Shown here piece after piece: positions 6,731-26,840 of a stretch of 64,000 nt of DNA (position 1 is its first letter; the number at the start of each line of letters is the position of its first letter). This stretch comes from an endosymbiont of Galathealinum brachiosum (GTDB taxonomy: Bacteria > Pseudomonadota > Gammaproteobacteria > SZUA-229), in assembly GCA_003349885.1 (NCBI GenBank), contig QFXC01000011.1, forward strand, positions 1 through 64,000, read 5' to 3'. Below the pieces are notes generated by a model. That model was given only the letters and a program-made list of their open reading frames with translations, did no database searches and was not told the origin of the DNA. The translations under genes and the position numbers were made by a program.

Positions 6731-7962
6731 TAACCTTTTGAAACGCCATCTGTTTCCAGGTCTGGTAATGCATCATCCGGATCACCCATACTTAAACTAG
6801 GCATACTTTCTTCATCTTCACCCTCTTCTTCTGGTTTTTCTTTTTCCATTAAGGACAAACCACCAAAAGAGTCCTCTTCATTCTGTTTCACCCTTTCCTC
6901 GGATCCCTCACCAAGTTCAATTTTGAGGCGTAAATTATTTTCAGAATCCGCATTTTTTAATGCTTCATCCATAGAAATTTTGCCCTTTTTATGAAGCTCC
7001 AGCAATGCACTATCAAAAGTACACATTCCCATACCTTCTGATTTTTCCATTACTTCCTTAATTTCAGAAACCTCCCCCCTCTTAATCAGCTCTTCTATTC
7101 TGGGCGAGTTCAATAAAACTTCAATTGCCGCACAACGCTTATTATCAACCGTTGGTATCAGACGCTGAGATACAAAAGCCTTCAGGTTTAATGATAAATC
7201 CTGTAACAATTGTGCATGGCGCTCTTCAGGAAAAAAGTTAATAATTCTATCCAGTGCCTGATTGGCATTATTCGCATGTAATGTAGAAATAGCCAGATGC
7301 CCTGTTTCGGCAAAGGCCAGCGCATGCTCCATGGTCTCCTGATCTCGAACCTCACCAATCAATATGACATCGGGTGCCTGACGCAGGGTATTTTTTAATG
7401 CATCTTCAAAACTATCCGTATCCACACCCACTTCTCGCTGATTAACAATACAACCTTTATGTGAGTGCACATATTCAATCGGATCTTCGATTGTGATGAT
7501 ATGACCTTTACTATGGGTATTTCGATGATCAATAAGCGCCGCTAAAGAAGTCGATTTACCAGAGCCTGTTCCACCAACAAACAGAATGATACCCCGCTTG
7601 ACCATAATCACTTTTTTCAATATGTCCGGTAAACCAAGATCTTCACAATTAGGGATTTCCGCATTGATATAGCGAATAACCATTGATACTTCATTACGCT
7701 GCTTGAAGATATTGACACGAAAGCGCCCAACACCCGATTCAGATATAGCCAGGTTCATTTCAGGCTTATGCTCAAACTCTGCCTGCTGCTCTTCAGACAT
7801 AATTTCCATTGCCAGAGACTTCACCCAACCCGGTGGTGCGGCCTTCTTGGATAATGGTGTCATCACACCATTGAACTTGGCGCTAGGCAGGGCTCCGGTT
7901 GACAGGTAGAGGTCTGAGCCATCTTTTTCTGCTAACACTTTAAGGTAAGGGCTGATTTTCAT
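6730..7962 (-). CDS. pilU: Type IV pilus retraction ATPase PilU
   Basis: 410 residues. Residues 1-110 are the PAS-like N-terminal domain (GSDLYLSTG...GRFRVNIFKQR). The RecA-like ATPase follows with Walker A GGTGSGKST (near 131-139), the Asp box, Walker B DVILIGEVRD and the His box TLHANNANQALDRI. The match to PilU rather than PilT is supported by NTLRQAPDVI, FAETGHLA, the region TFDSALLELHKKGKISMDEAL and the GLSLM near the end. The tail beyond ~370 is acidic and longer than in Pseudomonas PilU. PilU assists PilT in pilus retraction at the inner-membrane face. No pilT lies next to it here; it leads a three-gene operon with the CPXCG and FGE-like genes. Confidence 0.88.
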   Translation of the reverse strand: MKISPYLKVLAEKDGSDLYLSTGALPSAKFNGVMTPLSKKAAPPGWVKSLAMEIMSEEQQAEFEHKPEMNLAISESGVGRFRVNIFKQRNEVSMVIRYINAEIPNCEDLGLPDILKKVIMVKRGIILFVGGTGSGKSTSLAALIDHRNTHSKGHIITIEDPIEYVHSHKGCIVNQREVGVDTDSFEDALKNTLRQAPDVILIGEVRDQETMEHALAFAETGHLAISTLHANNANQALDRIINFFPEERHAQLLQDLSLNLKAFVSQRLIPTVDNKRCAAIEVLLNSPRIEELIKRGEVSEIKEVMEKSEGMGMCTFDSALLELHKKGKISMDEALKNADSENNLRLKIELGEGSEERVKQNEEDSFGGLSLMEKEKPEEEGEDEESMPSLSMGDPDDALPDLETDGVSKG

Positions 7963-8108
7963 TGATGGGGTGTCCTTGGTTTAATTACAACACCTATTGA
8001 TAATAGTCGATCTATATCAAAATTCACGATGAAACCAGCCTAATAATTGAAGAGATTTCAATATACCAAAATTTATAAAATTAAATTCCTTAATTAAAAT
8101 ATAAAAAC

Positions 8109-8522
8109 TTAATTACTCGCAGGCAAACCCTGCAAAACATTACCTTTTACAGGTGCAGATAAAAAAGTTTTTTTCAATAAAAAGAATGTGAATTCTTCAT
8201 TTCGATTCCACGCCATCAATGACATGCAACGAGCAAGGAAACAATATTCAAACAAAACCATTGCAGCCGTTCCAATTAACTGCCACCAGTACACCCAGAA
8301 CATAAACGGTAATTGGGCAATAATTAATAATGAAAAATAAGTTAATCTCACCTGTACAGGGAAAGCAACAAGGCTCTTTTCCCGTAAAATAAAATGCAAA
8401 ACCTGAATAAAGTTTAAAACAATAACGACATATAAACTTTGTTGATTTCCTGATACAACACCCATTAATAAAAGTGTTGTTACAGCCCAATACCACCAGA
8501 CGATATTATTAGAAAATTTCAT
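8109..8522 (-). CDS. Small integral membrane protein of unknown function
   Basis: 137 residues with four predicted membrane segments (near residues 7-24, 28-46, 60-78 and 82-98) and a more polar C-terminal 35 residues. Aromatic residues are rich (WWYW, FWVYWWQL). I do not recognise a family. AGGAG stands just before the ATG. It is the last gene of a leftward operon behind the DsrE protein and the methyltransferase, 58 bases after the DsrE gene, with a hairpin in that gap. The context suggests a role in sulfur or metalloid handling, but nothing in the sequence itself proves it. Confidence 0.65.
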   Translation of the reverse strand: MKFSNNIVWWYWAVTTLLLMGVVSGNQQSLYVVIVLNFIQVLHFILREKSLVAFPVQVRLTYFSLLIIAQLPFMFWVYWWQLIGTAAMVLFEYCFLARCMSLMAWNRNEEFTFFLLKKTFLSAPVKGNVLQGLPASN

Positions 8523-8541
8523 ATTATTCTCCTGTTACATC

Positions 8542-8574
8542 TTACGTCACACCTAAAATTCAGGCATGACGTAA
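8542..8574 (-). promoter_or_regulatory. Intercistronic hairpin between the DsrE and membrane-protein genes
   Basis: An inverted repeat TTACGTCA (8542-8549) / TGACGTAA (8567-8574) fills most of the 58-base gap. It has no T-run on the minus strand, so it is more likely an mRNA processing or stability element than a terminator. Confidence 0.4.
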
Positions 8575-8580
8575 TAAACC

Positions 8581-8958
8581 TTAAAAAGAAAAGGTCTGTC
8601 GACCCGCTGTTTGCTCTAGCATGGCTACAGCCCCCATCAATTCTACCTGCTGTAAAATATTATCTTCCGTTAAACCATGTGTTTTGGCACACGGAGGGCA
8701 AACACCTATTTTTCCACCATTTTCAATATATGTTTCCAGTAGCTCACTCACGGGCGCAAAACTTTTAGGCACTAATGATCCTGCTGCCCCCTGCTTTGCC
8801 AGCTCAACACCTTCCATCGTTAACCAGATTAATACATCTTTTCCTGCAACCAGTGCGCTATTCGCCAAAACCAGCGGGGTCGCCACTCGATCTGTATCAC
8901 TGCCAAAAGAAGTCAATGTAAACAGATAGTTATTTGATTGTGTATTTTGAGTCGTCAT
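8581..8958 (-). CDS. DsrE-family small sulfur-relay-like protein
   Basis: 125 residues with the DsrE/F fold pattern: an N-terminal beta strand (YLFTLTSFGSD), a long helix with PLVLANSALVAGKDVLIWLTMEGVELA and a late cysteine pair in KIGVCPPCAKTHG. The cysteine region is where DsrE, TusD and related proteins carry the persulfide-binding Cys. Cytoplasmic. It is most likely a sulfur-trafficking or thiol-binding protein. AAGGA precedes the ATG. It lies 32 bases after the ArsM-like methyltransferase in the same operon, which links it to methylation of a thiol or metalloid by context only. Confidence 0.8.
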   Translation of the reverse strand: MTTQNTQSNNYLFTLTSFGSDTDRVATPLVLANSALVAGKDVLIWLTMEGVELAKQGAAGSLVPKSFAPVSELLETYIENGGKIGVCPPCAKTHGLTEDNILQQVELMGAVAMLEQTAGRQTFSF

Positions 8959-8990
8959 GATTTTATTCCTTTTAATGTATTAATTTATTT

Positions 8991-9815
8991 TTAAACTTCA
9001 GAAAAAATACTATCCGGTTTACGCGCCAGGACAGAAATGCTTTTAACACCATATGTCTCTGTCGCCCCCTGCGCATTATCGGAAATAAAATGATATTCAG
9101 GGTTATCTATAACTGTTTCTATAATTAAACCTGCAGATCGAATGGCATCCAGATAATTCTCAACCTGCAATGCACCTCCTATGCATGCTGCCCATAAAGT
9201 TGCATCACAGGTAATACCTTCTGGTAACTGCACTTCCGTTACAATGTCCGACAATGCCAGACGGCCACCCGGCTTTAACAGGCGATTAACTTCCATAAAC
9301 ACCTTGTTTTTATTAGGTGCAAGATTAACAACACCATTACTGATAACGACATCGAAACTTTCATCTTCACAGGGTGCAGCCTGTATATAACCTTTCAGAT
9401 ATTTAATATTTTTAAAACCGGATTCTGTTCTTAATGAGTCCGATTTTTTAAGCTGGGCATCTGTCATATCTATACCAACAACTTCACCGTTCTGCCCAAC
9501 CTGAGTCGCGGCATAAAAAGTATCCATACCCGCTCCACTACCCAGGTCGACCACTTTTTCGCCTGCTTTTATATTCGCCAGGCCAAAGTAATAACCTACC
9601 CCAGCAAACGACTCTATCGCCGCTGAGGGAATCATACCCAGATACCTGGCCGGGTAACCCAGACGCTCTGCCATCTGATAGCCCATTTCAAAATGAAAAT
9701 CACCCTGTGGATTTTCAGCCACATCCTGATACATTTGTTTTACTTTCATCTCAAGATCACTCGCATTAACGTCTGTATTATTTGCCAGGTCTAGTTTTTC
9801 TGCTATTGCACTCAT
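8991..9815 (-). CDS. SAM-dependent methyltransferase, ArsM-like
   Basis: About 274 residues. Motif I of class I methyltransferases is VVDLGSGAGMDTF; then come VVGIDMTDAQL, FDVVISNGVVNLAPNK, RLLKPGGRLALSDIV and WAACIGGAL. This layout follows arsenite methyltransferases, including the later Cys in the C-x-GGAL segment. However, the essential ArsM cysteine in SN-C-V-x-N-L is Gly here (SNGVVNL). Arsenite is therefore not a safe substrate; a thiol, sulfide or other metalloid is possible. Start: ATG 9815 has GGAGG eight bases upstream, while ATG 9830 has none. It leads the operon with the DsrE and membrane proteins. Confidence 0.78.
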   Translation of the reverse strand: MSAIAEKLDLANNTDVNASDLEMKVKQMYQDVAENPQGDFHFEMGYQMAERLGYPARYLGMIPSAAIESFAGVGYYFGLANIKAGEKVVDLGSGAGMDTFYAATQVGQNGEVVGIDMTDAQLKKSDSLRTESGFKNIKYLKGYIQAAPCEDESFDVVISNGVVNLAPNKNKVFMEVNRLLKPGGRLALSDIVTEVQLPEGITCDATLWAACIGGALQVENYLDAIRSAGLIIETVIDNPEYHFISDNAQGATETYGVKSISVLARKPDSIFSEV

Positions 9816-9951
9816 TATTGAGTCCTCCATATTGATTTCAAAAATGAATCTACTTAAGACCCTTGTAAAAAATTAACTTACCGGGACCTGCTGTAGAGAC
9901 TGAGTACAGAATAAGGTTGCAATGAATTTAAAACGCGGAACAAAAGGGAAT

Positions 9952-9977
9952 AAAAAAAAGGACATATGTCCTTTTTT
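9952..9977 (-). terminator. Rho-independent terminator
   Basis: Palindrome AAAAAAAGGACATATGTCCTTTTTT. On the minus strand it ends in a T-run and lies just after the AhpD-like gene, separating it from the methyltransferase operon. Confidence 0.65.
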
Positions 9978-10060
9978 AAAAATCATACAAATAAAATTAA
10001 TTACACCGTTGGTGTTATATTTAAATCTAGAATATTATCCAGATCCTATCTTTATTAACA

Positions 10061-10666
10061 TCAACCCGTTCTGACATGTTTTCCTTTATGTTTATTACTA
10101 ATATCTACACTACTTTGTTTTGGGTTCCATCTATATTCAACAAACTCTTCATCAAGAGGAATCTGAATAAGATTATTAGTTAAGTTACTGAATGTTTTTA
10201 CGCATACCCCCAAAATAACTTCCAGTGCCTGCTCTGCTGTATAACCTGCCGATAAAAAATCCTGTAAATGATCTTTATTGATAACGCCTTTACTATTTGA
10301 CAGTACACTTGAAAATGTCTGCAATGCTTCAAGTCGCACATCATTAATTCTATCTCTATCTCTAACCGCATTAATCGTATTGGTATCAACTCCCTGCATT
10401 TCTGCAAATGCACTATGACCTGCCACACAATAACTGCATTCATTTTCAACACTCACAGCGGCTTGTATAACCTCACGTTCGGTCGGAGTAAAATGTGTTT
10501 CACTCATTTGTGTATTAAGCTGCATAAATGCACGTAAAGCCGGTTCTGACTCCGCTAAAGTTGCAAACACATTGGGAACAAAACCCAACATATTTTCAAC
10601 AGATAGAAGCAATTTGTCAGCGGGAAATTTTGCAGTTTCAGCGGTATAAAGTGGATATGGTTTCAT
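10061..10666 (-). CDS. AhpD-like carboxymuconolactone decarboxylase-family protein
   Basis: 201 residues. The conserved core ENECSYCVAGHSAFA (near residues 74-88) has the E...C-x2-C...H relay of AhpD peroxidases. The flanking helices, including FTPTEREVIQAAVSVEN, fit the all-helical CMD fold. The likely activity is alkylhydroperoxidase or thiol peroxidase in the cytoplasm. The C-terminal 30 residues are polar and extra. It is divergent from the HxlR regulator with 188 bases between them, and that gap carries a palindromic operator candidate. HxlR-type regulators often control adjacent divergent oxidoreductase genes, so regulation by it is plausible. Confidence 0.85.
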   Translation of the reverse strand: MKPYPLYTAETAKFPADKLLLSVENMLGFVPNVFATLAESEPALRAFMQLNTQMSETHFTPTEREVIQAAVSVENECSYCVAGHSAFAEMQGVDTNTINAVRDRDRINDVRLEALQTFSSVLSNSKGVINKDHLQDFLSAGYTAEQALEVILGVCVKTFSNLTNNLIQIPLDEEFVEYRWNPKQSSVDISNKHKGKHVRTG

Positions 10667-10759
10667 AAGTCACCTGTTCTTTGTATTATTAATAAAAATG
10701 TCTTTGTTTTGCTGTAATCAATACTAAGAATTGATGGTATGTACCTCTACTGCAGGAGT

Positions 10760-10787
10760 TGTAGTGGAGCACTACATTTTATGTAGT
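10760..10787. promoter_or_regulatory. Candidate HxlR operator, copy A
   Basis: A perfect inverted repeat TGTAGTG-GAG-CACTACA (10760-10776) overlaps a second one, ACTACAT-TTT-ATGTAGT (10771-10787). The same motif (TGTAGT-N5-ACTACATTTTATG) occurs at 11597-11618 before the MddA-like gene. Placement between the divergent AhpD-like and HxlR genes and repetition at a second promoter point to the local HxlR protein as the binder; this is inferred. Confidence 0.65.
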
Positions 10788-10854
10788 AACTCACTAGCAT
10801 TATTAGAGTTACTAATTTGTTATACTATAACTCCCCCCAAATAAGGAATGCCTT

Positions 10855-11538
10855 ATGGAATATGGTCAGTTTTGCCCTATCGCCAAAGCAACTGAAGTAT
10901 TAGGAGAGAAGTGGACTATTTTAATCGTTCGTGAAATTCTCATGGGTGGCACACGCTTTAATATGTTACAACGTGGCTTAAGCCTGATATCCCCTACCAT
11001 GCTTTCAAAGCGACTGGATTCTCTGGAGGAAGCAGGTCTCATTTTAAAACGCAAGATTCCTAATCAGAAGGGTTATGAATACTTTCCAACCAAATCCTGT
11101 GAAGAATTGTTACCTATTATCAAAACATTAGGTGATTGGGGAATGCGCTGGGCCAGAGAGAACCTGCCCGACAAAGACTGCGATGTGGAGTTATTAATGC
11201 TGTATTTAAAACGCAGCATCAATATCGATAATCTGATAGGCAATCAAACGGTTATCCGGTTTAAATTCACCAACCTAACGGAACATGCCACCTGGTGGAT
11301 TACAGTTGAAGGTGAAGAGGTTGATATTTGCGACACAGACCCAGGCAAAGATATTGATATTTATTTTACAACCGATGTCAGAACCATGGTAAAAATCTGG
11401 ATGGGAGATACAACTTACAAACGTGAAATGAAAAACGACACCCTAAAAGTAGTAGGCCATACAGCCCTTGTAAACACCATCAGTTCGTGGATGGCGGATA
11501 GCATGTACGCAGATTTGCAACCTGCCAGTGAAATTTAA
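10855..11538 (+). CDS. HxlR-family regulator with SCP2-like C-terminal domain
   Basis: 227 residues. Residues 1-95 are the HxlR winged helix: CPIAKATEVLGEKWTILIVREI, then TMLSKRLDSLEEAGLILKR and KGYEYFPT. The N-terminal Cys7 is the redox-sensing position in several thiol/quinone-responsive HxlR proteins. Residues ~120-225 resemble an SCP2 sterol-carrier-like ligand domain, a combination seen in a subset of the family. It probably represses the divergent AhpD-like gene and the downstream MddA-like gene through the shared palindrome. A -10-like TATACT lies at 10821-10826. Confidence 0.85.
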   Translation: MEYGQFCPIAKATEVLGEKWTILIVREILMGGTRFNMLQRGLSLISPTMLSKRLDSLEEAGLILKRKIPNQKGYEYFPTKSCEELLPIIKTLGDWGMRWARENLPDKDCDVELLMLYLKRSINIDNLIGNQTVIRFKFTNLTEHATWWITVEGEEVDICDTDPGKDIDIYFTTDVRTMVKIWMGDTTYKREMKNDTLKVVGHTALVNTISSWMADSMYADLQPASEI

Positions 11539-15970: not shown

Positions 15971-18322
15971 ATGCACAAAGCTTTTTTACTAACTCGTCAG
16001 GCCTACGACACAAAACACGGCATTCAATTAGAACTCTGGTTTAACTCTGATTCTGGTCCTGTTCAGGTTTTTATAAACCAACAACAAGCTGTCTTTTTTA
16101 TACAACAATCAAACATTGATCGAGTAGCTCCGTTGCTTTCGAAAAACAGGGCTTATATAAAAAACATTAACCTGTTAGATTTTAAACGCCAACCCATGGC
16201 CGCTGTATATTGCAACTCCTTACAGTATTTTTATCGAATAAGAGACCAGCTAAAAGAAAATAACATCCCTGCATTTGAAACAGATATACGGCCGACTGAA
16301 CGTTTTCTAACTGAACGTTTTATTACAGGGCCTGTAACGCTAAATAACCCGGACAAGTTATCAACACTTACCAACCCTGCAATCAAGGCTGATGACTACA
16401 ACCCTGTACTGAAGCTAATGTCTTTAGATATTGAGACTTCATATGATACCGACGAATTATTTTCTATTGCTTATATTTGTGACAACATTAAAAAGGTTTT
16501 AATAGTCGGCAACAATCAACTCAATAACGATTTAATTCAAACCGTAACTGATGAAAAACAATTACTCACTTTATTCATTCAACATATACATAAATTTGAC
16601 CCAGATGTATTTATTGGCTGGAATGTTATAAATTTTGATTTTCGCTTTCTACAGAAGAAGGCAGATCAACTTAATGTGCCTTTAAAAATAGGCCGTAATC
16701 ACTCACTCGTAAAATGGCGCCAACATCATGCTGAAGCAAATCATTATTTCTTACATATCCCGGGAAGAGTGGTACTTGATGGCATAGACACATTAAAAAG
16801 TGCAACCTGGCAATTCTCAAGCTTTTCACTTGATAATGTTTCTAATGAATTATTAAACCGCGGAAAACTCATTCAACAACACAACAGTCATGACCCATTA
16901 TTTAAAGCCAAAGAAATCAAACGTCAATTTTATAAAGACAAAACATCACTGGCAAAATATAACCTCGAAGATTGCCAGCTTGTACTCGATATTTTTAATA
17001 AAGCAGAATTAATTCATTTTGCTATTGAACGCGCCCGCTTAACCGGCCTCGAAATGGACAGAGTAGGTGGCTCTGTTGCTGCTTTTGATAATTTATACCT
17101 ACCACGTTTACACAGAAAAGGTTTTACCGCACCTAACACAGGTGACTATGGGAGCGGCAATACCGCTCCTGGTGGTTACGTAATGAATTCTAAACCGGGG
17201 TTATTCAATAGCGTTCTTGTTCTAGATTATAAGAGTCTGTATCCGAGTATTATACGCACATTCAAAGTCGATCCTTATGCGCGAATTGCGGCTAAACAAC
17301 AAATAGATGATGACATTATTCCCGGTTATGACGGTGCCAGCTTTTCCAAGCAAGAGCATATACTTCCTGAAATCATTGCTGATTTATGGCAGGCAAGAGA
17401 CAAAGCTAAGCGTGAGAAAAACAAAGCTTTATCTCAGGCAATAAAAATCATTATGAATTCATTCTATGGCGTATTGGGAACTGCTGGTTGTCGCATTCAT
17501 GATGCACGCCTTACCAGCTCAATCACCAAACGTAGTCACGACATTATTAAACAGTCTGTTAAGTTAATTAATACTCAGGGATATGAGGTTATCTACGGTG
17601 ATACAGATTCAGTTTTTGTATCATTAGACAAAAGCGTAAAAAACAATGAAGCAAATAAGATTGGCCAGCATCTAATCGATATAATAAATAGCTATTGGAA
17701 ACAACATTTAAATGAAGATTTCGGTATTGAATCATATCTTGAAATGGAATATGAAACACACTTCAAACGCTTTTTTATGCCGACAATCAGAGGTTCAGAA
17801 AAAGGAAGCAAAAAGCGTTATGCCGGTGTTATCAGTACAGATAATGGTGATAAGATTATTTTTAAAGGACTCGAAAATGTTCGCACTGACTGGACACAAT
17901 TAGCCCGTGATTTTCAGCAGACATTATATTATAAAGTTTTTAATGACGAAGCATACGCTGACTTTATTCGACAAGTCGTCAAACAGTTATCTAATGGCGA
18001 ATTAGACCATCAGCTCACATATAGAAAACGACTACGACAAAAACTTGATCTCTATCAGAAGAATATACCTCCACATGCTCGTGCGGCTATAAATTCTGAA
18101 GCTATATTTAAGCGGGAGGGGAAACCTTCACGTTACCAGAACAAGGGATGGATTGAGTATGTTATGACCTTAAACGGCCCGGAAACACTGGAATGCCAGT
18201 CTTCTAAATTAGACTATGAACATTATATTGAAAAACAGCTAACGCCAATAGCGGACAGTATTCTTGCTGCATTAAATGACTCAATGGATAACATACTCAA
18301 TCGTCAATTTAATTTATTTTAA
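15971..18322 (+). CDS. polB: DNA polymerase II (family B)
   Basis: 783 residues, the same length as E. coli Pol II. The 3'-5' exonuclease motif is LSLDIETSYD (near 150), with a second acidic exo motif in FIGWNVINFDFRF. Polymerase motif A is DYKSLYPSII (near 418), motif B is IKIIMNSFYGVLG, and motif C is YGDTDSVFV (near 541). All catalytic aspartates are in place, so it should be active in lesion bypass, fork restart and proofreading. It starts 10 bases after the kinase-cyclase stop, with only a weak ribosome binding site, and ends before a clear terminator. An SOS-type LexA box was not found in the short gap. Confidence 0.95.
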   Translation: MHKAFLLTRQAYDTKHGIQLELWFNSDSGPVQVFINQQQAVFFIQQSNIDRVAPLLSKNRAYIKNINLLDFKRQPMAAVYCNSLQYFYRIRDQLKENNIPAFETDIRPTERFLTERFITGPVTLNNPDKLSTLTNPAIKADDYNPVLKLMSLDIETSYDTDELFSIAYICDNIKKVLIVGNNQLNNDLIQTVTDEKQLLTLFIQHIHKFDPDVFIGWNVINFDFRFLQKKADQLNVPLKIGRNHSLVKWRQHHAEANHYFLHIPGRVVLDGIDTLKSATWQFSSFSLDNVSNELLNRGKLIQQHNSHDPLFKAKEIKRQFYKDKTSLAKYNLEDCQLVLDIFNKAELIHFAIERARLTGLEMDRVGGSVAAFDNLYLPRLHRKGFTAPNTGDYGSGNTAPGGYVMNSKPGLFNSVLVLDYKSLYPSIIRTFKVDPYARIAAKQQIDDDIIPGYDGASFSKQEHILPEIIADLWQARDKAKREKNKALSQAIKIIMNSFYGVLGTAGCRIHDARLTSSITKRSHDIIKQSVKLINTQGYEVIYGDTDSVFVSLDKSVKNNEANKIGQHLIDIINSYWKQHLNEDFGIESYLEMEYETHFKRFFMPTIRGSEKGSKKRYAGVISTDNGDKIIFKGLENVRTDWTQLARDFQQTLYYKVFNDEAYADFIRQVVKQLSNGELDHQLTYRKRLRQKLDLYQKNIPPHARAAINSEAIFKREGKPSRYQNKGWIEYVMTLNGPETLECQSSKLDYEHYIEKQLTPIADSILAALNDSMDNILNRQFNLF

Positions 18323-18342
18323 TATTACTCACATCATCCATA

Positions 18343-18377
18343 AAAAAGGCCGACAACTAATTCGTTATCGGCCTTTT
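18343..18377. terminator. Bidirectional rho-independent terminator
   Basis: Stem AAAAGGCCGA / TCGGCCTTTT around a 14-base loop between the convergent polB and Q-rich protein genes, with an A-run before and T-run after. Confidence 0.8.
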
Positions 18378-18397
18378 GTTAGAACAATAATTAAACC

Positions 18398-19057
18398 TTA
18401 ATATCTACGCGGTCCATAATATGGAGCTGGTTGATAATAAGGATTAGGATTGTAATAAACAGGCGCTCTGGTTGCAGGTTGAGGCATATTCATATTTGGC
18501 CCACGATTCCATTGCTGTGATTTAAGCCATTGTTGCTGTTGAGCTTGCATCTGCTTCTTCCATTGAGCCTGTTGAGCTTTCTGCTTCTCAAGCATAGCCT
18601 GTTGCTGCTCAAGCATTTGTGCCTGCTGCTTATCACGCATAGCCTGATGTTCTTTAAACCAGGCGGGTTGCTTTGCTTTATCCAGACCAGGGTGATTTTC
18701 ACTCATTGGAATAGACTGTCTTGATTCCTGCATAGCTTTACGGCGTTCTGCCATCATATCAGCCATTGAATTCTGATTTATCGCCATTGCACTATTTTCA
18801 ACTGGTGTAACACTCTCAATCGCTGGTGCTGTTGCAACAGCATCAACATCTGAACTTCCAGATGATAAAACAATACCCACTATACCTGTTGCAAACATTG
18901 CAACGGTTAGTATTAATGCATATGGTGTTTTATTAGACTGATCTTTTTCAACTACTGTTTCTTCTGATTTACTTTCTTCTTCTGACGGCATAAGTCCCAT
19001 CTCCTCTAGTTTTTTAGCCACTTTTTCATTACTTTTATCTTTAGCTTTTTTTGTCAT
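18398..19057 (-). CDS. Single-pass membrane protein with Gln-rich coiled coil and Pro/Tyr tail
   Basis: 219 residues. A charged N-terminus (residues 1-44) rich in K and E is followed by one membrane segment (near 46-64, LILTVAMFATGIVGIVL). Then comes an Ala/Val linker and a long M/Q/K-rich helix (about 135-185, with repeats such as QAQMLEQQQAM). The tail is Pro/Tyr/Asn-rich (YYNPNPYYQPAPYYGPRRY). I do not recognise a family. It starts 60 bases after the stop of a dynamin-like GTPase on the same strand, so it may be its membrane partner. The low-complexity helix makes homology calls unreliable. Confidence 0.75.
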   Translation of the reverse strand: MTKKAKDKSNEKVAKKLEEMGLMPSEEESKSEETVVEKDQSNKTPYALILTVAMFATGIVGIVLSSGSSDVDAVATAPAIESVTPVENSAMAINQNSMADMMAERRKAMQESRQSIPMSENHPGLDKAKQPAWFKEHQAMRDKQQAQMLEQQQAMLEKQKAQQAQWKKQMQAQQQQWLKSQQWNRGPNMNMPQPATRAPVYYNPNPYYQPAPYYGPRRY

Positions 19058-19116
19058 AATTTATATCCTCTAAAATATGTAATCATTTAACTTCAATATG
19101 GTTAGTTGTTTACCTC

Positions 19117-20613
19117 TTAAATATCCGCATTAGACGACACGGACATGCTTTCTACTTCTTTATCTACATTCTTTGTATCCATTTTTCCGGATGGCATCGC
19201 AAACTGGTCATTTAATTTTTGAATAAATAGATCAGCCTGATTTTTAACTTTCTTTAATGTGTTTTTCGAAAAATAACCCCAACCAATTACCTGCGGCCTG
19301 ATTATGCTATGAAAGAACTGCGTGTTTTTTATAAATGCTCTTTTAATGCTCGCTTTATATGCATCCGAATATTTACCCGTCATTAATTTTTTAAGCTGCT
19401 TAATACCTGCATATTTTCGAGATGTAAAATGTATTACCAGAAGCAGGGAAAAAGCAACTAACGCCCCTGTTAACTGACCACCTGTTGATGAACTCGCCCA
19501 ATCGACAAGAGACAACAGCACCTCAGTAACCGATATGCTCGCCATCATAAGAGCACCGATAATTAACGTTATTGCAGCAATAACAAAAGCATCACGACGT
19601 AAAACACTTCTGCGCCAATCCGATAACATTGAGATTAATTTAGGTAGTTTTTCGTGCTCAATTTCTCGTGCTGTTTTATCTAACGCACCTATAATCCGAT
19701 ACACTCTATCAATATCTATCTGCGCTATTAGATCATTTATTTTATTTAAATCAGTATCACGTTTTTGCTCAAAACGCTTGCGTACAACTTCATCTTCAAT
19801 AACGACTGCTGCATCCGGATTATAAATTGTATAAAACTTCCCTGCGGTCAGACCTTCTGCAGACAATGCTCTTTGCCATGAGGCGATTACGTCTTCAGGA
19901 TTATCCTCTCTAACTGTGGCATCAATCTGGTTTAATATATAAACAAACTTATCCGCATTTTTCTGATAAATTTTATCCGCTACCAGATGTTTCAGAGTAT
20001 CACGCATAGCACCCGGTTCAGGATGGCGAGCATCAAAAAAGATCAGAACCAGATCAGATAAATCAATTATATAATCTGTGATTTTTAATGTTTCAGTTCG
20101 TTGATCGTCCGCATCAAAACCTGGTGAATCTATAAAAATCCGACCTTTTGATTTGATATCCGGACAGGTCTTCATTTGCATATAAGTATTAATTCGATCA
20201 CTTGCACCGGGACAGACTTTCTCAAGCACATCAGCCATGTGATAAAAAGGAAAACGTGGATCCGCTTCCAGTGAAATACCTGGTAATACCCGTGCCTGTT
20301 TTTCTGCCGAATAACAAATCACTGTAAATTTATCATCTACAGCCTGTGTACCTGTTTCCTGCAAAGGCGTATTGAGATAGTGATTAATAAAGGTAGATTT
20401 ACCCGCAGAGAAAGTCCCAAGAACTGAAATCAGCGGCCACCAGGGTATCTGGTTCGCATAAGATTCATCTCGGGCTAACAAACCCATTCGATAACCCACT
20501 TTATCAAGCTTTCTAAATTCCTGAACAGCGTTAACCAAAAGAGGGTTTTCAGTAGCCAGATGATTTTCCAGCTGCTCCAGACGTTGCTTTATCTGACTAT
20601 CCGCTCCAAACAT
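19117..20613 (-). CDS. Dynamin-like/EHD-like membrane GTPase
   Basis: About 498 residues. The P-loop is LGTFSAGKSTFIN (near residue 66), the switch I Thr lies in QETGTQAVDDKFT, G3 is DSPG (near 165) and G4 is NQID (near 235). Two hydrophobic segments near 345-370 and 385-405 would anchor it in the membrane, and a basic C-terminal helical region follows. GTFSAGKS is the sequence typical of the dynamin/EHD superfamily. Bacterial members remodel or repair membranes, but this one is uncharacterised. Start: ATG 20613 with GGAA six bases before; a TTG at 20625 is possible. The Q-rich membrane protein is next in the likely operon. Confidence 0.85.
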   Translation of the reverse strand: MFGADSQIKQRLEQLENHLATENPLLVNAVQEFRKLDKVGYRMGLLARDESYANQIPWWPLISVLGTFSAGKSTFINHYLNTPLQETGTQAVDDKFTVICYSAEKQARVLPGISLEADPRFPFYHMADVLEKVCPGASDRINTYMQMKTCPDIKSKGRIFIDSPGFDADDQRTETLKITDYIIDLSDLVLIFFDARHPEPGAMRDTLKHLVADKIYQKNADKFVYILNQIDATVREDNPEDVIASWQRALSAEGLTAGKFYTIYNPDAAVVIEDEVVRKRFEQKRDTDLNKINDLIAQIDIDRVYRIIGALDKTAREIEHEKLPKLISMLSDWRRSVLRRDAFVIAAITLIIGALMMASISVTEVLLSLVDWASSSTGGQLTGALVAFSLLLVIHFTSRKYAGIKQLKKLMTGKYSDAYKASIKRAFIKNTQFFHSIIRPQVIGWGYFSKNTLKKVKNQADLFIQKLNDQFAMPSGKMDTKNVDKEVESMSVSSNADI

Positions 20614-23021: not shown

Positions 23022-26000
23022 ATGACTGATAAAAACACTTCTGTTGGTGTAACACGCCGAGAGTACAACCAGTATGTAGCAACTGAGTCTATTGAAGACT
23101 ACGCTTTGCGTTATACACCCGCCAGCCACCGTAAATGGTCTGAATTTATGGTGGCGAATACGGCATTCGGCAATACCTCTTTCCTGGCGCTGGAAGCAAT
23201 AGGCGCCAGCATTGCCATTAGTTATGGCTTTCAAAATGCCTTCTGGGGAATTCTTTCTGCCTCGATTATTATTTTTCTAATGGGTTTACCCATTTGTTAT
23301 CAGGCCGCTAAAAATAATATTGATATTGATCTGTTAACCCGAGCTGCAGGTTTTGGGTATTTTGGCTCAACTATCACATCCCTTATCTACGCTACTTTCT
23401 GTTTCATTTTCTTTGCACTGGAAGCCGCCATTATGGCTCAGGCAATATACCTTTACACCGGTTTACCTCTGGCTATTGGTTACGCTCTTTGTTCAATCAT
23501 TATAATTCCCATTGTATTTTATGGTATGAGCGCAATCAGTCGCTTACAGTTTTTAACACAACCAGTCTGGTTCGTATTGATGGTTTTACCCTTTATTGTT
23601 GTGCTCAATAAAGAACCAGAATTACTCACTCACTTTTTTGAATTTACCGGAAACATATCTAACAGCTCTGAATTTTCAACTTACTATTTTGGTTTTTCCA
23701 TGGGCATCTCTCTCGCACTAATAGCGCAGATTGGAGAACAGGTAGATTACCTGCGTTTTATGCCTGATAAAACCAGTAATAACAGAATAAAATGGTGGGC
23801 ATCCGTTATTCTGGCAGGCCCTGGATGGATCATTATTGGTTTTTTAAAACAGATTGGTGGCATCCTGCTTGCGGCTCTTTTAATTATTGCAGGCGCTTCA
23901 GATTTTGAAATAAGAGAACCAATACATATGTATAACACTGCTTACACATATGTATTTGATAATCCGTCTACCGCATTAACCATTAGTTTAATTTTCGTTA
24001 TCATTTCACAAATTAAAATTAATGTAACCAATGCTTATGCCGGATCATTAGCATGGTCTAATTTCTTCTCACGCATAACTCATGCTCACCCCGGTCGTGT
24101 TGTCTGGCTTATATTTAATATATCAATTGCATTATTATTAATGGAAATGGGTGTTTTTGATGTACTCGAAAAAATACTTGGCCTTTACTCAACTATTGCC
24201 ATTGCCTGGATATCTGCAATAGTTGCCGACCTTGTTATTAATAAACCTCTTGGACTAAGCCCTCCAGTCATTGAGTTTAAACGTGCGCATTTATTCAATA
24301 TAAACCCGGTAGGCGTATTCAGCACACTCATAGCATCGGTTTCGGCTATTTTATGTTTTGCCGGTTTTTTTGGTTATGAACTTCAGGCATTTTCCTCAAT
24401 CGTTGCATTAGTTTTAGCTTTTATTTTATCTCCTTTTATTGCCTTTATTACAAAAGGAAAATACTACATCGCAAGAGAGTCACTGATTCTTGACAAGACT
24501 AAATTACATAAATGTGGTGTTTGTGGAATTCAGTACCATGCCATAGACATGGCCAGCTGCACGATGTATGACACTAACATATGTTCTCTTTGCTGCTCTC
24601 TGGAATCTCGCTGCCACGACGAATGCAAACCAGCAACCGAATTTAAACTCAGTAAAAAAATATCCTCAAGACTAGACGATTTTTTCAGCTCTTATCTACA
24701 ATCAAATTCTACACATCGAATAATCAGTTTCGCTTTAACATTTATCGGTTTATTAGGCTTAATCGGTTTTATTCTTTTGACCACCTACACTGTAAGAGCA
24801 ATCGACCTGGATGCAGCTTCATTACAAATCATAAAAAACACATATATTAATTTATTTTATATACTTTCTTTGATTTCATTAGTTGCTGCATGGTTAATAG
24901 TGTTAATGCACGAAGATCGTGAGTTTGTTGAAAGCGAATTGAAATATAAAAACCAGGAACTAATTAACAGTAAAACACGTTACCACCAGATTTTTGAAGA
25001 TAACTCCCTAATCAAAATAATTATCGACCCTGCCTCAGGAAAACTTGTAGAAACTAATAATGCTGCAGTCAAATTTTATGGTTACGATTCTGATACACTT
25101 TCAAATCTGCTTATTTTTGACCTCAACACAACCCCCAAAGACCAGGTAAAAACACTTATAAATAAAGTAAAAAACAAAGAGATAAACAGCTTCACGACAC
25201 AACACAAATTAGCTTCTGGTGAATTACGTGATGTAGAAATATTCCCCTGCCTTATACATACCGATGAAGGTGAATTTATTTACTCTGTAGTCATCGACAT
25301 TACTAACCGTTTACTCGTTGAGCAAAAATTAATTCAAAGCGAAAACCGTCTTGATCTTGCAATGTCAGTTGCTAATGATGGCATCTGGGACTGGAACATG
25401 GAAACCAATGAGGTTTTATTTGACGACCGTTATTACACCATGGCGGGCTATCAGGTCAGGGAGTTCCCTCAAACATTTGAAGAATGGAATAAACGCGTTC
25501 ATAAATATGATATTGAAAAAGTAATGAATTCAATTCTGCAATACACGTCTGGTGAAATTAATATATTTGATGTTAATTTTAGATTTTTATGTAAAAACAA
25601 TCATTATATGTGGATACGCGGACGAGGAAAAATAGTTGAAGTTAACTCACAGGGAAAACCATCACGCTTTATAGGCACTCACTCTGATATTTCACAACAA
25701 AAAATTGCTGAAGAAGCCTTAACTCAATCAACAAAAATGAAAGCGGTTGGCCAGCTCACAGGTGGCATAGCGCATGACTTCAATAATATTCTGGCTATTA
25801 TTCTAGGTAACATTGAATTAATGGAAGATGATATCAACTTCACGGATAAACTCAGAAAGAGATTCGACTCTATAACACACGCCACTCAGAGAGCTATTGA
25901 CTTAACAAAAAATCTACTCACCTACTCACGTATTGAAGAAACCAATACTCAGGTTATCAATATTAATTCGTCGATAAACAAATTACTCAGCCTGATTGAT

Positions 26001-26840
26001 CAATCATTAACCCCTATGATTAAAGTCATTTTTTTACCAGTAAAAGATGCCTGGATGACTGAAATCAACCCATCTGATTTTGAAAACTCATTATTAAACC
26101 TTGCCATCAATGCGCGTGATGCAATGCAGGGCGAAGGTATATTAACAATCAGTACTTTCAACACATATATCGAAAACCATAAAGGTTTAAAATCGGGTGA
26201 TTATATAGAAATTGATATATCAGATACCGGATCAGGCATTAATGAACAGGCGCTTAAACATATCTTCGAGCCGTTCTTTACAACTAAAGAGCAGGGGAAA
26301 GGCACAGGACTTGGCCTTTCTATGGTTCACGGCTTTGTTAATCGCTCCAGAGGTTTAATCACAGCTGAATCTGAAATGGGCACAGGCACCACATTTAAAT
26401 TATATCTACCTAGACATACTGGTAATAAGTTAACTGAGCCCTCCCCCGAGACGGCGTTATCAGAAAATATAACCGGAAAAGAGACATTACTACTTGTCGA
26501 TGATGAAATTCAACTACTGGAATTAGCAGAAGAATCACTATCTGACTCAGGTTATCAGATACTAACAACAGATAATGCAAAAAGTGCTTTAGAAATTTTA
26601 AAGCATAATCCCGATATCAAGCTGTTATTTAGCGATATTGTAATGCCAGATATGAATGGTTACGAACTAGCTGAGCGAGCACACAAACTATATCCACATT
26701 TAAAGATATTACTTACTTCAGGTGATACAAGTAAAGTCGTTATAAATAACAGTTATCAACATACACCTGAAGATCTACTAAATAAGCCTTACTCTCAATT
26801 AATGTTACATAAATCAATTAGAGATTTACTGGATAGCTAA
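23022..26840 (+). CDS. NCS1-type permease fused to a hybrid sensor histidine kinase
   Basis: 1272 residues. Residues ~20-490 form about 12 membrane helices resembling the purine/cytosine (NCS1) permease fold (RYTPASHRKWSEFMVANTAF, LEAIGASIAISYGF). A cysteine cluster at ~498-540 (C498-x2-C501, then CSLCC and CHDEC) looks like a metal site. Two more membrane helices (~565-625) follow, then two PAS domains (~655-770 and ~773-900). HisKA follows with GGIAHDFNN (His918), then an ATPase with EPFFTTKEQGKGTGLGLS and a receiver with Asp1205 (SDIVMP). The design parallels CbrA, in which a transporter-like module feeds a kinase. The ligand is unknown. I recall similar fusions in other gammaproteobacteria. 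No DNA-binding partner is adjacent. Confidence 0.88.
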   Translation: MTDKNTSVGVTRREYNQYVATESIEDYALRYTPASHRKWSEFMVANTAFGNTSFLALEAIGASIAISYGFQNAFWGILSASIIIFLMGLPICYQAAKNNIDIDLLTRAAGFGYFGSTITSLIYATFCFIFFALEAAIMAQAIYLYTGLPLAIGYALCSIIIIPIVFYGMSAISRLQFLTQPVWFVLMVLPFIVVLNKEPELLTHFFEFTGNISNSSEFSTYYFGFSMGISLALIAQIGEQVDYLRFMPDKTSNNRIKWWASVILAGPGWIIIGFLKQIGGILLAALLIIAGASDFEIREPIHMYNTAYTYVFDNPSTALTISLIFVIISQIKINVTNAYAGSLAWSNFFSRITHAHPGRVVWLIFNISIALLLMEMGVFDVLEKILGLYSTIAIAWISAIVADLVINKPLGLSPPVIEFKRAHLFNINPVGVFSTLIASVSAILCFAGFFGYELQAFSSIVALVLAFILSPFIAFITKGKYYIARESLILDKTKLHKCGVCGIQYHAIDMASCTMYDTNICSLCCSLESRCHDECKPATEFKLSKKISSRLDDFFSSYLQSNSTHRIISFALTFIGLLGLIGFILLTTYTVRAIDLDAASLQIIKNTYINLFYILSLISLVAAWLIVLMHEDREFVESELKYKNQELINSKTRYHQIFEDNSLIKIIIDPASGKLVETNNAAVKFYGYDSDTLSNLLIFDLNTTPKDQVKTLINKVKNKEINSFTTQHKLASGELRDVEIFPCLIHTDEGEFIYSVVIDITNRLLVEQKLIQSENRLDLAMSVANDGIWDWNMETNEVLFDDRYYTMAGYQVREFPQTFEEWNKRVHKYDIEKVMNSILQYTSGEINIFDVNFRFLCKNNHYMWIRGRGKIVEVNSQGKPSRFIGTHSDISQQKIAEEALTQSTKMKAVGQLTGGIAHDFNNILAIILGNIELMEDDINFTDKLRKRFDSITHATQRAIDLTKNLLTYSRIEETNTQVININSSINKLLSLIDQSLTPMIKVIFLPVKDAWMTEINPSDFENSLLNLAINARDAMQGEGILTISTFNTYIENHKGLKSGDYIEIDISDTGSGINEQALKHIFEPFFTTKEQGKGTGLGLSMVHGFVNRSRGLITAESEMGTGTTFKLYLPRHTGNKLTEPSPETALSENITGKETLLLVDDEIQLLELAEESLSDSGYQILTTDNAKSALEILKHNPDIKLLFSDIVMPDMNGYELAERAHKLYPHLKILLTSGDTSKVVINNSYQHTPEDLLNKPYSQLMLHKSIRDLLDS

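Follow-up and report, generated by a model that had tools for sequence, protein, structure and literature searches.

The sensor kinases CbrA and MxtR/CrbS combine a transporter domain of the LeuT fold, which belongs to the SLC5/SSS family and is followed by a STAC domain, with a PAS-HisKA-HATPase signalling part (PMC7096432, PMC13022988, PMC7918813). CbrA has been reported to transport histidine while it signals (PMC7096432, PMC13022988). Ks-Amt5, the ammonium transporter-histidine kinase of Kuenenia, is likewise a transporter module turned into a kinase sensor (PMC5764959). Here we describe a gene whose product follows the principle of CbrA and Ks-Amt5 with different parts. The gene is located at positions 23022-26840 on the forward strand of the window, which is the whole stretch of 64,000 nucleotides analysed (contig QFXC01000011.1, assembly GCA_003349885.1, endosymbiont of Galathealinum brachiosum). 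It encodes 1272 amino acids (aa), in which an NCS1-type sensory module is followed by a cysteine cluster, two extra transmembrane (TM) helices (TM13 and TM14), two PAS domains, a hybrid histidine kinase and a receiver. It adds NCS1 to SLC5 among the LeuT-fold transporter families that serve bacteria as sensors of histidine kinases. No published characterisation of an NCS1-kinase fusion was found in the open-access literature.

The window protein shares with the CbrA group the LeuT-fold transporter domain, the PAS, HisKA and HATPase domains and, probably, a ligand of the nutrient type, and it shares the receiver with MxtR. It differs from this group in that the transporter domain is an NCS1 module, that an eight-cysteine knob and two helices are present where STAC would be located, that the relatives have amide and urea genes around them, and that variants with GGDEF-EAL outputs exist. 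A family search of 24450-24750 for a CbrA-like STAC linker gives no match at E values up to 10, the presence of a STAC model in Pfam not being separately checked. Membership of the SLC5-STAC group is excluded, because the NCS1 folds are the best matches, SGLT ranks lower, and neither an SSS match in Pfam nor a STAC match is found. Ks-Amt5 responds to a nitrogen compound, as the window protein probably does, but its module has the Amt fold and is unrelated. We know of no cysteine cluster in Ks-Amt5 that is comparable to that of the window protein. GrtK (PMC12918730) was considered as a characterised member of the family and rejected, because it contains a PilS-like domain and is unrelated.

The NCS1-like module consists of residues 1-485 (23022-24476; all features given below are on the forward strand) and contains 12 helices. 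The N-terminal region of about 485 residues has no Pfam match, and direct searches of Pfam and the PDB with the module sequence are also empty. Even at an E value of 10, not one of 29 members (the window protein and 28 others) is recognised by PF02133, the NCS1 model of Pfam, and the window genome likewise gives no match to it. Because direct sequence searches are empty, the module was examined by fold comparison and through an intermediate sequence. The AlphaFold2 (AF2) model covers residues 1-573, is built from an alignment of six sequences and is of moderate confidence, with a mean predicted local distance difference test (pLDDT) score of 67 and a predicted template modelling (pTM) score of 0.68. 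Its best five PDB fold matches in Foldseek are three Mhp1 structures (4d1a, 2jln, 2x79) and two matches to CodB (7qoa), with E values of 9e-9 to 1e-7, and Nramp, SGLT and APC structures rank below them. The intermediate is the protein of locus L103, which has 497 aa and passes the PF02133 cut-off; 474 of its residues align with the window module at 24% identity (E 4e-33). The model thus places the module in the NCS1/LeuT-type 12-helix fold, closest to Mhp1 and CodB. We call it NCS1-like or NCS1-derived, because PF02133 fails while the fold and the intermediate protein provide the link.

Mhp1 and CodB (2jln, 4d1a, 7qoa) share with the module the fold, a conserved Asn in TM8 and a DxxRF-type motif after TM6. 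They differ from it in being transporters of hydantoins or cytosine, in having only 16-18% identity to it, and in lacking both the cysteine domain and the kinase. A preliminary description of this gene, made from its sequence, had proposed a permease, a cysteine cluster, two extra helices, two PAS domains, a kinase and a receiver in one chain, with an NCS1-like 12-helix module at the N-terminus and the principle of CbrA realised with a different transporter family. The intact open reading frame (ORF), the Pfam matches and the hydropathy profile bear out this order of parts; the NCS1 relation holds on the homology check, through the AF2 fold matches and the L103 protein, despite the absence of a Pfam match; and the comparison with CbrA is supported. 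The module (23022-24740) has no model in Pfam or NCBIfam, though it is frequent in Pseudomonadota. At L103 (7949-11168), the NCS1 permease that passes PF02133 adjoins a protein in which the carbon-nitrogen hydrolase domain occurs twice, which suggests that further amide-type NCS1 transporters exist outside the eight-cysteine group.

The likely ligand class is indicated by the gene context of the relatives, whose loci were gathered by sequence and not by context. UrtA, FmdA or UreC is encoded within the fetched flanks of 61 of the 68 receptor-length relatives, and the loci with this context span 18 family codes. In 39 of the 68, the UrtA gene lies next to the receptor gene and is divergent from it, and a response-regulator gene is directly downstream in 57 (the one that was checked encodes REC and GerE/LuxR domains). 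The seven relatives without such a context are four members of the small clade that includes the window protein, two located near contig ends, and one from Acinetobacter, at whose locus a stand-alone copy of the module is encoded next door. Annotated plasmid loci agree with this picture, in that they encode UrtABCDE, formamidase, FmdB, a nitrilase or amidase, the kinase and the regulator.

Stand-alone permeases are found in similar surroundings. That of L012 (8968-10650, 560 aa) adjoins an aliphatic amidase and is itself downstream of a kinase copy, and that of L005 lies between two genes that read as amidases. That of L157 (9067-10749, 553 aa) is 19 bp from a same-strand FmdA gene and divergent from the genes for UAAP1, UAAP2 and urea carboxylase. 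These three proteins have the same module including the cysteine cluster, with 52-55% identity to the window protein, but lack TM13-14 and a signalling output. Because they lie in formamidase or amidase loci, an amide- or urea-type permease is likely to be the ancestor or the sister of the receptor module. A five-gene transporter beside a formamidase in Bradyrhizobium has been argued to carry an amide other than urea (PMC3098086).

The urt/fmd/urease context of the relatives makes urea or short-chain amides the likely ligand class rather than nucleobases, and the window protein probably senses urea or small amides. The preliminary description had suggested purines, pyrimidines and hydantoins, a suggestion that the context of these 61 relatives and of the stand-alone permease in the formamidase/urea-carboxylase locus does not favour. 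Among characterised NCS1 proteins, Mhp1 transports hydantoins and CodB transports cytosine, and the fold of the module would suit a sensor that retains these classical substrates. Such a nucleobase or hydantoin sensor is nevertheless improbable, because PF02133 matches no member and nothing in the window genome, because the relatives' context is overwhelmingly that of urea and amides, and because the position that aligns with Q121 of Mhp1 is an invariant Glu.

This Glu is E134 in TM3, which is followed by A135 (23421-23426), a position occupied by Gly in the stand-alone permeases. The TM8 segment Q330-x-K332-x-N334-x-x-N337-x-Y339-A340 (24009-24041) contains N337, which aligns with N318 of Mhp1, and K332, which falls in the TM8 stretch equivalent to Na2, although its register is uncertain by one residue. 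In Mhp1, Q121 is a substrate-site residue and the corresponding TM8 stretch belongs to the Na2 site. In TM1, F54 and E58 (23181-23195) are both present in 70 of 71 receptors, the remaining one having a gap on a truncated contig, and in none of the stand-alone permeases, of which the sample is five proteins only. Six positions separate receptors from stand-alones, namely F54, E58, A135, I172, A340 and T353, none of which is kept in L005, L012 or L157; otherwise they are near-invariant. Among the six, E58 is in TM1, A135 in TM3 and A340, which is Ser in the stand-alones, in TM8. We guess that a salt bridge between E58 and K332 might replace sodium. By alignment, the pocket positions do not differ between the window clade and the urt/fmd/ure-linked receptors.

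The receptor states at these positions look derived, because distant NCS1 proteins (L103, L130 and L131) carry Gly at 135 and Ser at 340 as the stand-alones do. In a first tree, rooted with one distant NCS1 protein, the stand-alones are nested inside the receptors. This tree is not preferred. In a second tree, to which the intermediate and two more outgroups were added and from which the cysteine domain was omitted, all receptors form one clade with the stand-alones outside (support 96). The second tree is preferred because the outgroups share G135 and S340 with the stand-alones; long branches remain in it, and the preference is provisional. The same residues bear on whether the window protein is a true transceptor, which would signal and still carry its ligand across the membrane, as CbrA is reported to do with histidine (PMC7096432, PMC13022988). 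The kept fold and pocket residues and the CbrA precedent are consistent with transport. We consider it unlikely, because receptors differ from stand-alones at the six positions, including E58, A135 and A340, because the outgroups have the stand-alone states at 135 and 340, and because dedicated urt transporters adjoin most receptors.

The cysteine cluster consists of residues 498-536 (24513-24629), with cysteines at 498, 501, 513, 521, 524, 525, 531 and 535. All eight are kept in 71 of 71 receptor-type homologues, which is conservation far beyond chance and supports the metal-type site that the preliminary description had placed at about 498-540. Losses in two stand-alone permeases occur by site: the Acinetobacter protein has lost exactly C513, C525, C531 and C535, and in the distant L146/L158 protein exactly C501 and C524 are changed, with His nearby, and the remaining six are kept. 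These losses suggest that the cluster is divided into two predicted sites, {C498, C501, C521, C524} and {C513, C525, C531, C535}. The ligand pattern would then be interleaved, as in RING or FYVE domains, and the cluster is probably a RING/FYVE-like mini-domain with two zinc ions. In the predicted structure of residues 481-670, a β-β-β-α knob is followed by TM13 and then by a long helix that comprises TM14 and the signalling helix; by hydropathy and prediction, the two extra helices are at about 563-596 and 607-632 and continue into this long helix (24708-24917). The eight cysteines are equally conserved in the stand-alone permeases L005, L012 and L129, which indicates that the knob is not a device solely for coupling to a kinase. 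At L158 (9664-11364), Alicyclobacillus encodes a distant NCS1 protein of 566 aa with a Cys/His-substituted cluster, CPIDH...CSHDC...C...C, which is an intermediate useful for tracing the origin of the knob.

On balance, the window protein is probably a hybrid kinase in which a converted amide permease makes up the ligand-binding half, coupled to the kinase through two helices and a knob with two zinc ions. Urea, formamide, acetamide or another closely related small amide would bind in the NCS1 pocket, formed, to judge from the alignment, by E134, the Q236/E239/Q240 stretch and N334/N337. The resulting conformational change of the permease bundle would be read on the cytoplasmic side by the eight-cysteine, probably two-zinc, RING/FYVE-like knob, and the signal would pass through TM13-TM14 and the long helix to the PAS-PAS-HisKA-HATPase part. 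The phosphate would then move from His918 to Asp1205 and on to some Hpt protein or regulator. In most relatives, the same module would drive a hybrid kinase and an adjacent LuxR-type regulator beside urt/fmd or urease genes. In the window clade, it would have been freed from these genes and joined to a kinase here and to GGDEF-EAL in a sister of the same genome. We infer the ligand from the relatives and from the unchanged pocket positions. Several observations weigh against this proposal. Context alone fails to separate urea, formamide and acetamide. The fold search with the knob model returns many RING, FYVE and PHD domains, each non-significant (E 0.4-7). No biochemistry was found for any member of the eight-cysteine module family. 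UrtA and urease are undetected in the window genome, the UrtA search being without a positive control of its own. The ligand may also have drifted, because no amide genes lie near the window gene and no marker genes are detectable in the genome.

The window protein is thus an orphan receptor, in which the sensor is kept without detectable FmdA, UrtA or urease. FmdA is undetected in the window genome and in the L001-L003 genomes, but is detected in those of L004 and L005. The linked arrangement of the relatives is absent from the window, where neither an adjacent LuxR-type regulator nor urt, fmd or ure genes are found, and a search of the window genome for the usual LuxR-type partner gives receiver-only or generic matches, so that no partner is assigned. 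The window protein forms one clade (support 99) with its paralogue L065 and with L001, L002, L003, L173 and L174. This is a small clade of Gammaproteobacteria and Campylobacterota in which the output is a kinase in some members and GGDEF-EAL in others. L065 and L001 have PAS-GGDEF-EAL outputs, and L002 has PAS-PAS-GGDEF-EAL. The kinases of L003 and L173 lack PAS domains, whereas L174 has a PAS-PAS-kinase output and the window protein has PAS-PAS-kinase-receiver. Two genomes, that of the window and the Sulfurimonas genome G475, each encode one copy with GGDEF-EAL and one with PAS-PAS-kinase, so that kinase and cyclic diguanylate (c-di-GMP) outputs are found on the same input module within a single genome. 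In kinases outside the clade, HisKA is located about 150-205 residues past the cysteine motif, as compared with about 400 in the window protein, and those that were scanned contain no PAS.

These properties could mean that the window clade is re-tuned, so that its pocket or cysteine cluster reports something other than an amide, such as redox state or a metal, and PAS adds a further input. The orphan context, with the marker genes undetected as above, the insertion of two PAS domains and the exchange of outputs are in its favour. Its probability is rather low, because the pocket-segment residues are unchanged relative to amide-linked receptors, and the equal retention of the eight cysteines in stand-alones L005, L012 and L129 suggests a structural role rather than clade-specific sensing. 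The absence of conserved neighbours, and the patchy presence of the module among the window genome's own relatives (3 of 40 genomes), would also suit a degenerate or pseudogenised fusion without function. This is highly improbable, because the 1272-aa frame is intact, the kinase, receiver, pocket and cysteine residues are all kept, and the paralogue is intact as well. For the converted-permease reading, a more specific history can be proposed tentatively. A short-amide NCS1 permease with a two-zinc cross-brace knob may have been converted once to a non-transporting receptor (E58/A135/A340), have spread as a kinase plug-in beside urea and formamide genes, and have become connected to c-di-GMP as well as kinase outputs in lineages of Gammaproteobacteria and Campylobacterota in which no formamidase is detectable. 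If this is true, the module represents an undescribed receptor class, and amides act as an environmental cue and not as a nutrient signal in the re-wired lineages.

The module is used repeatedly as a sensory input, and its fusion is not rare. Strong matches (E < 1e-100) are present in 52 of 399 sampled Pseudomonadota genomes, a count that leaves out the weak NCS1-like matches and one partial contig included in a raw tally of 64. They are rare in Campylobacterota (2 of 397 genomes), and in Bacillota they are found in 2 of 399 genomes as stand-alone permeases. In PLSDB, 536 plasmid records have a module match, of which 342 are labelled Klebsiella; the Acinetobacter records labelled as plasmids are chromosome-sized and unannotated in the collection, and were thus read by ORF alone. 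What is special to the window protein differs from what the preliminary description had pointed out: it is the inserted PAS pair, the exchange with GGDEF-EAL and the loss of the metabolic partner genes. The receptors are candidate regulators of the formamide/urea-amide utilisation clusters, which occur widely in Pseudomonadota and on plasmids of Klebsiella and for which the papers found describe no sensor. The existence of close stand-alone permease relatives allows transporter and receptor states to be compared residue by residue. In the Klebsiella plasmid record that was inspected (L010, 8974-12354), the sensor lies with urtABCDE and formamidase, and arsenic resistance genes are nearby. A shorter variant is encoded at L059 (8863-11547) and L063 (8799-11456), where the receptor kinases are 894 and 885 aa long, respectively, and a same-strand FmdA gene lies alongside; the receiver is absent from the one of the two that was scanned. 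In the Bacillota genome of L157 (G806), the urea carboxylase cluster is followed by two genes for unassigned membrane proteins (16753-19335), the first of which has no NCBIfam match.

The signalling half of the window protein is complete. The ORF starts with ATG and has no internal stop. Pfam identifies PAS_9 at residues 666-761 (25017-25304), PAS_3 at 799-887 (25416-25682), HisKA at 910-973 (25749-25940), HATPase_c at 1022-1131 (26085-26414) and Response_reg at 1157-1266 (26490-26819). The motif check finds the H-box AHDFNN (917) with the phospho-acceptor His918, the N, G1 and G2 boxes, and the Asp (phospho-acceptor Asp1205) and Lys motifs of the receiver all kept. The protein is therefore a hybrid histidine kinase by its HisKA H-box, HATPase N/G boxes and receiver Asp. 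A scan for sigma-70 promoters and terminators around the start of the gene finds no element. A DEAD-box helicase gene ends 65 bp upstream and a DegT aminotransferase gene is located downstream on the same strand, and these neighbours give no hint of the ligand. The paralogue L065 (G000:C3:73000-92900, 7849-11520, minus strand) is intact, and its sensory module is 74% identical to that of the window protein. Judging from their sequences, genes near it encode form II RubisCO, CbbQ/CbbO and a regulator of the LysR type, which suggests that the host is probably an autotroph.

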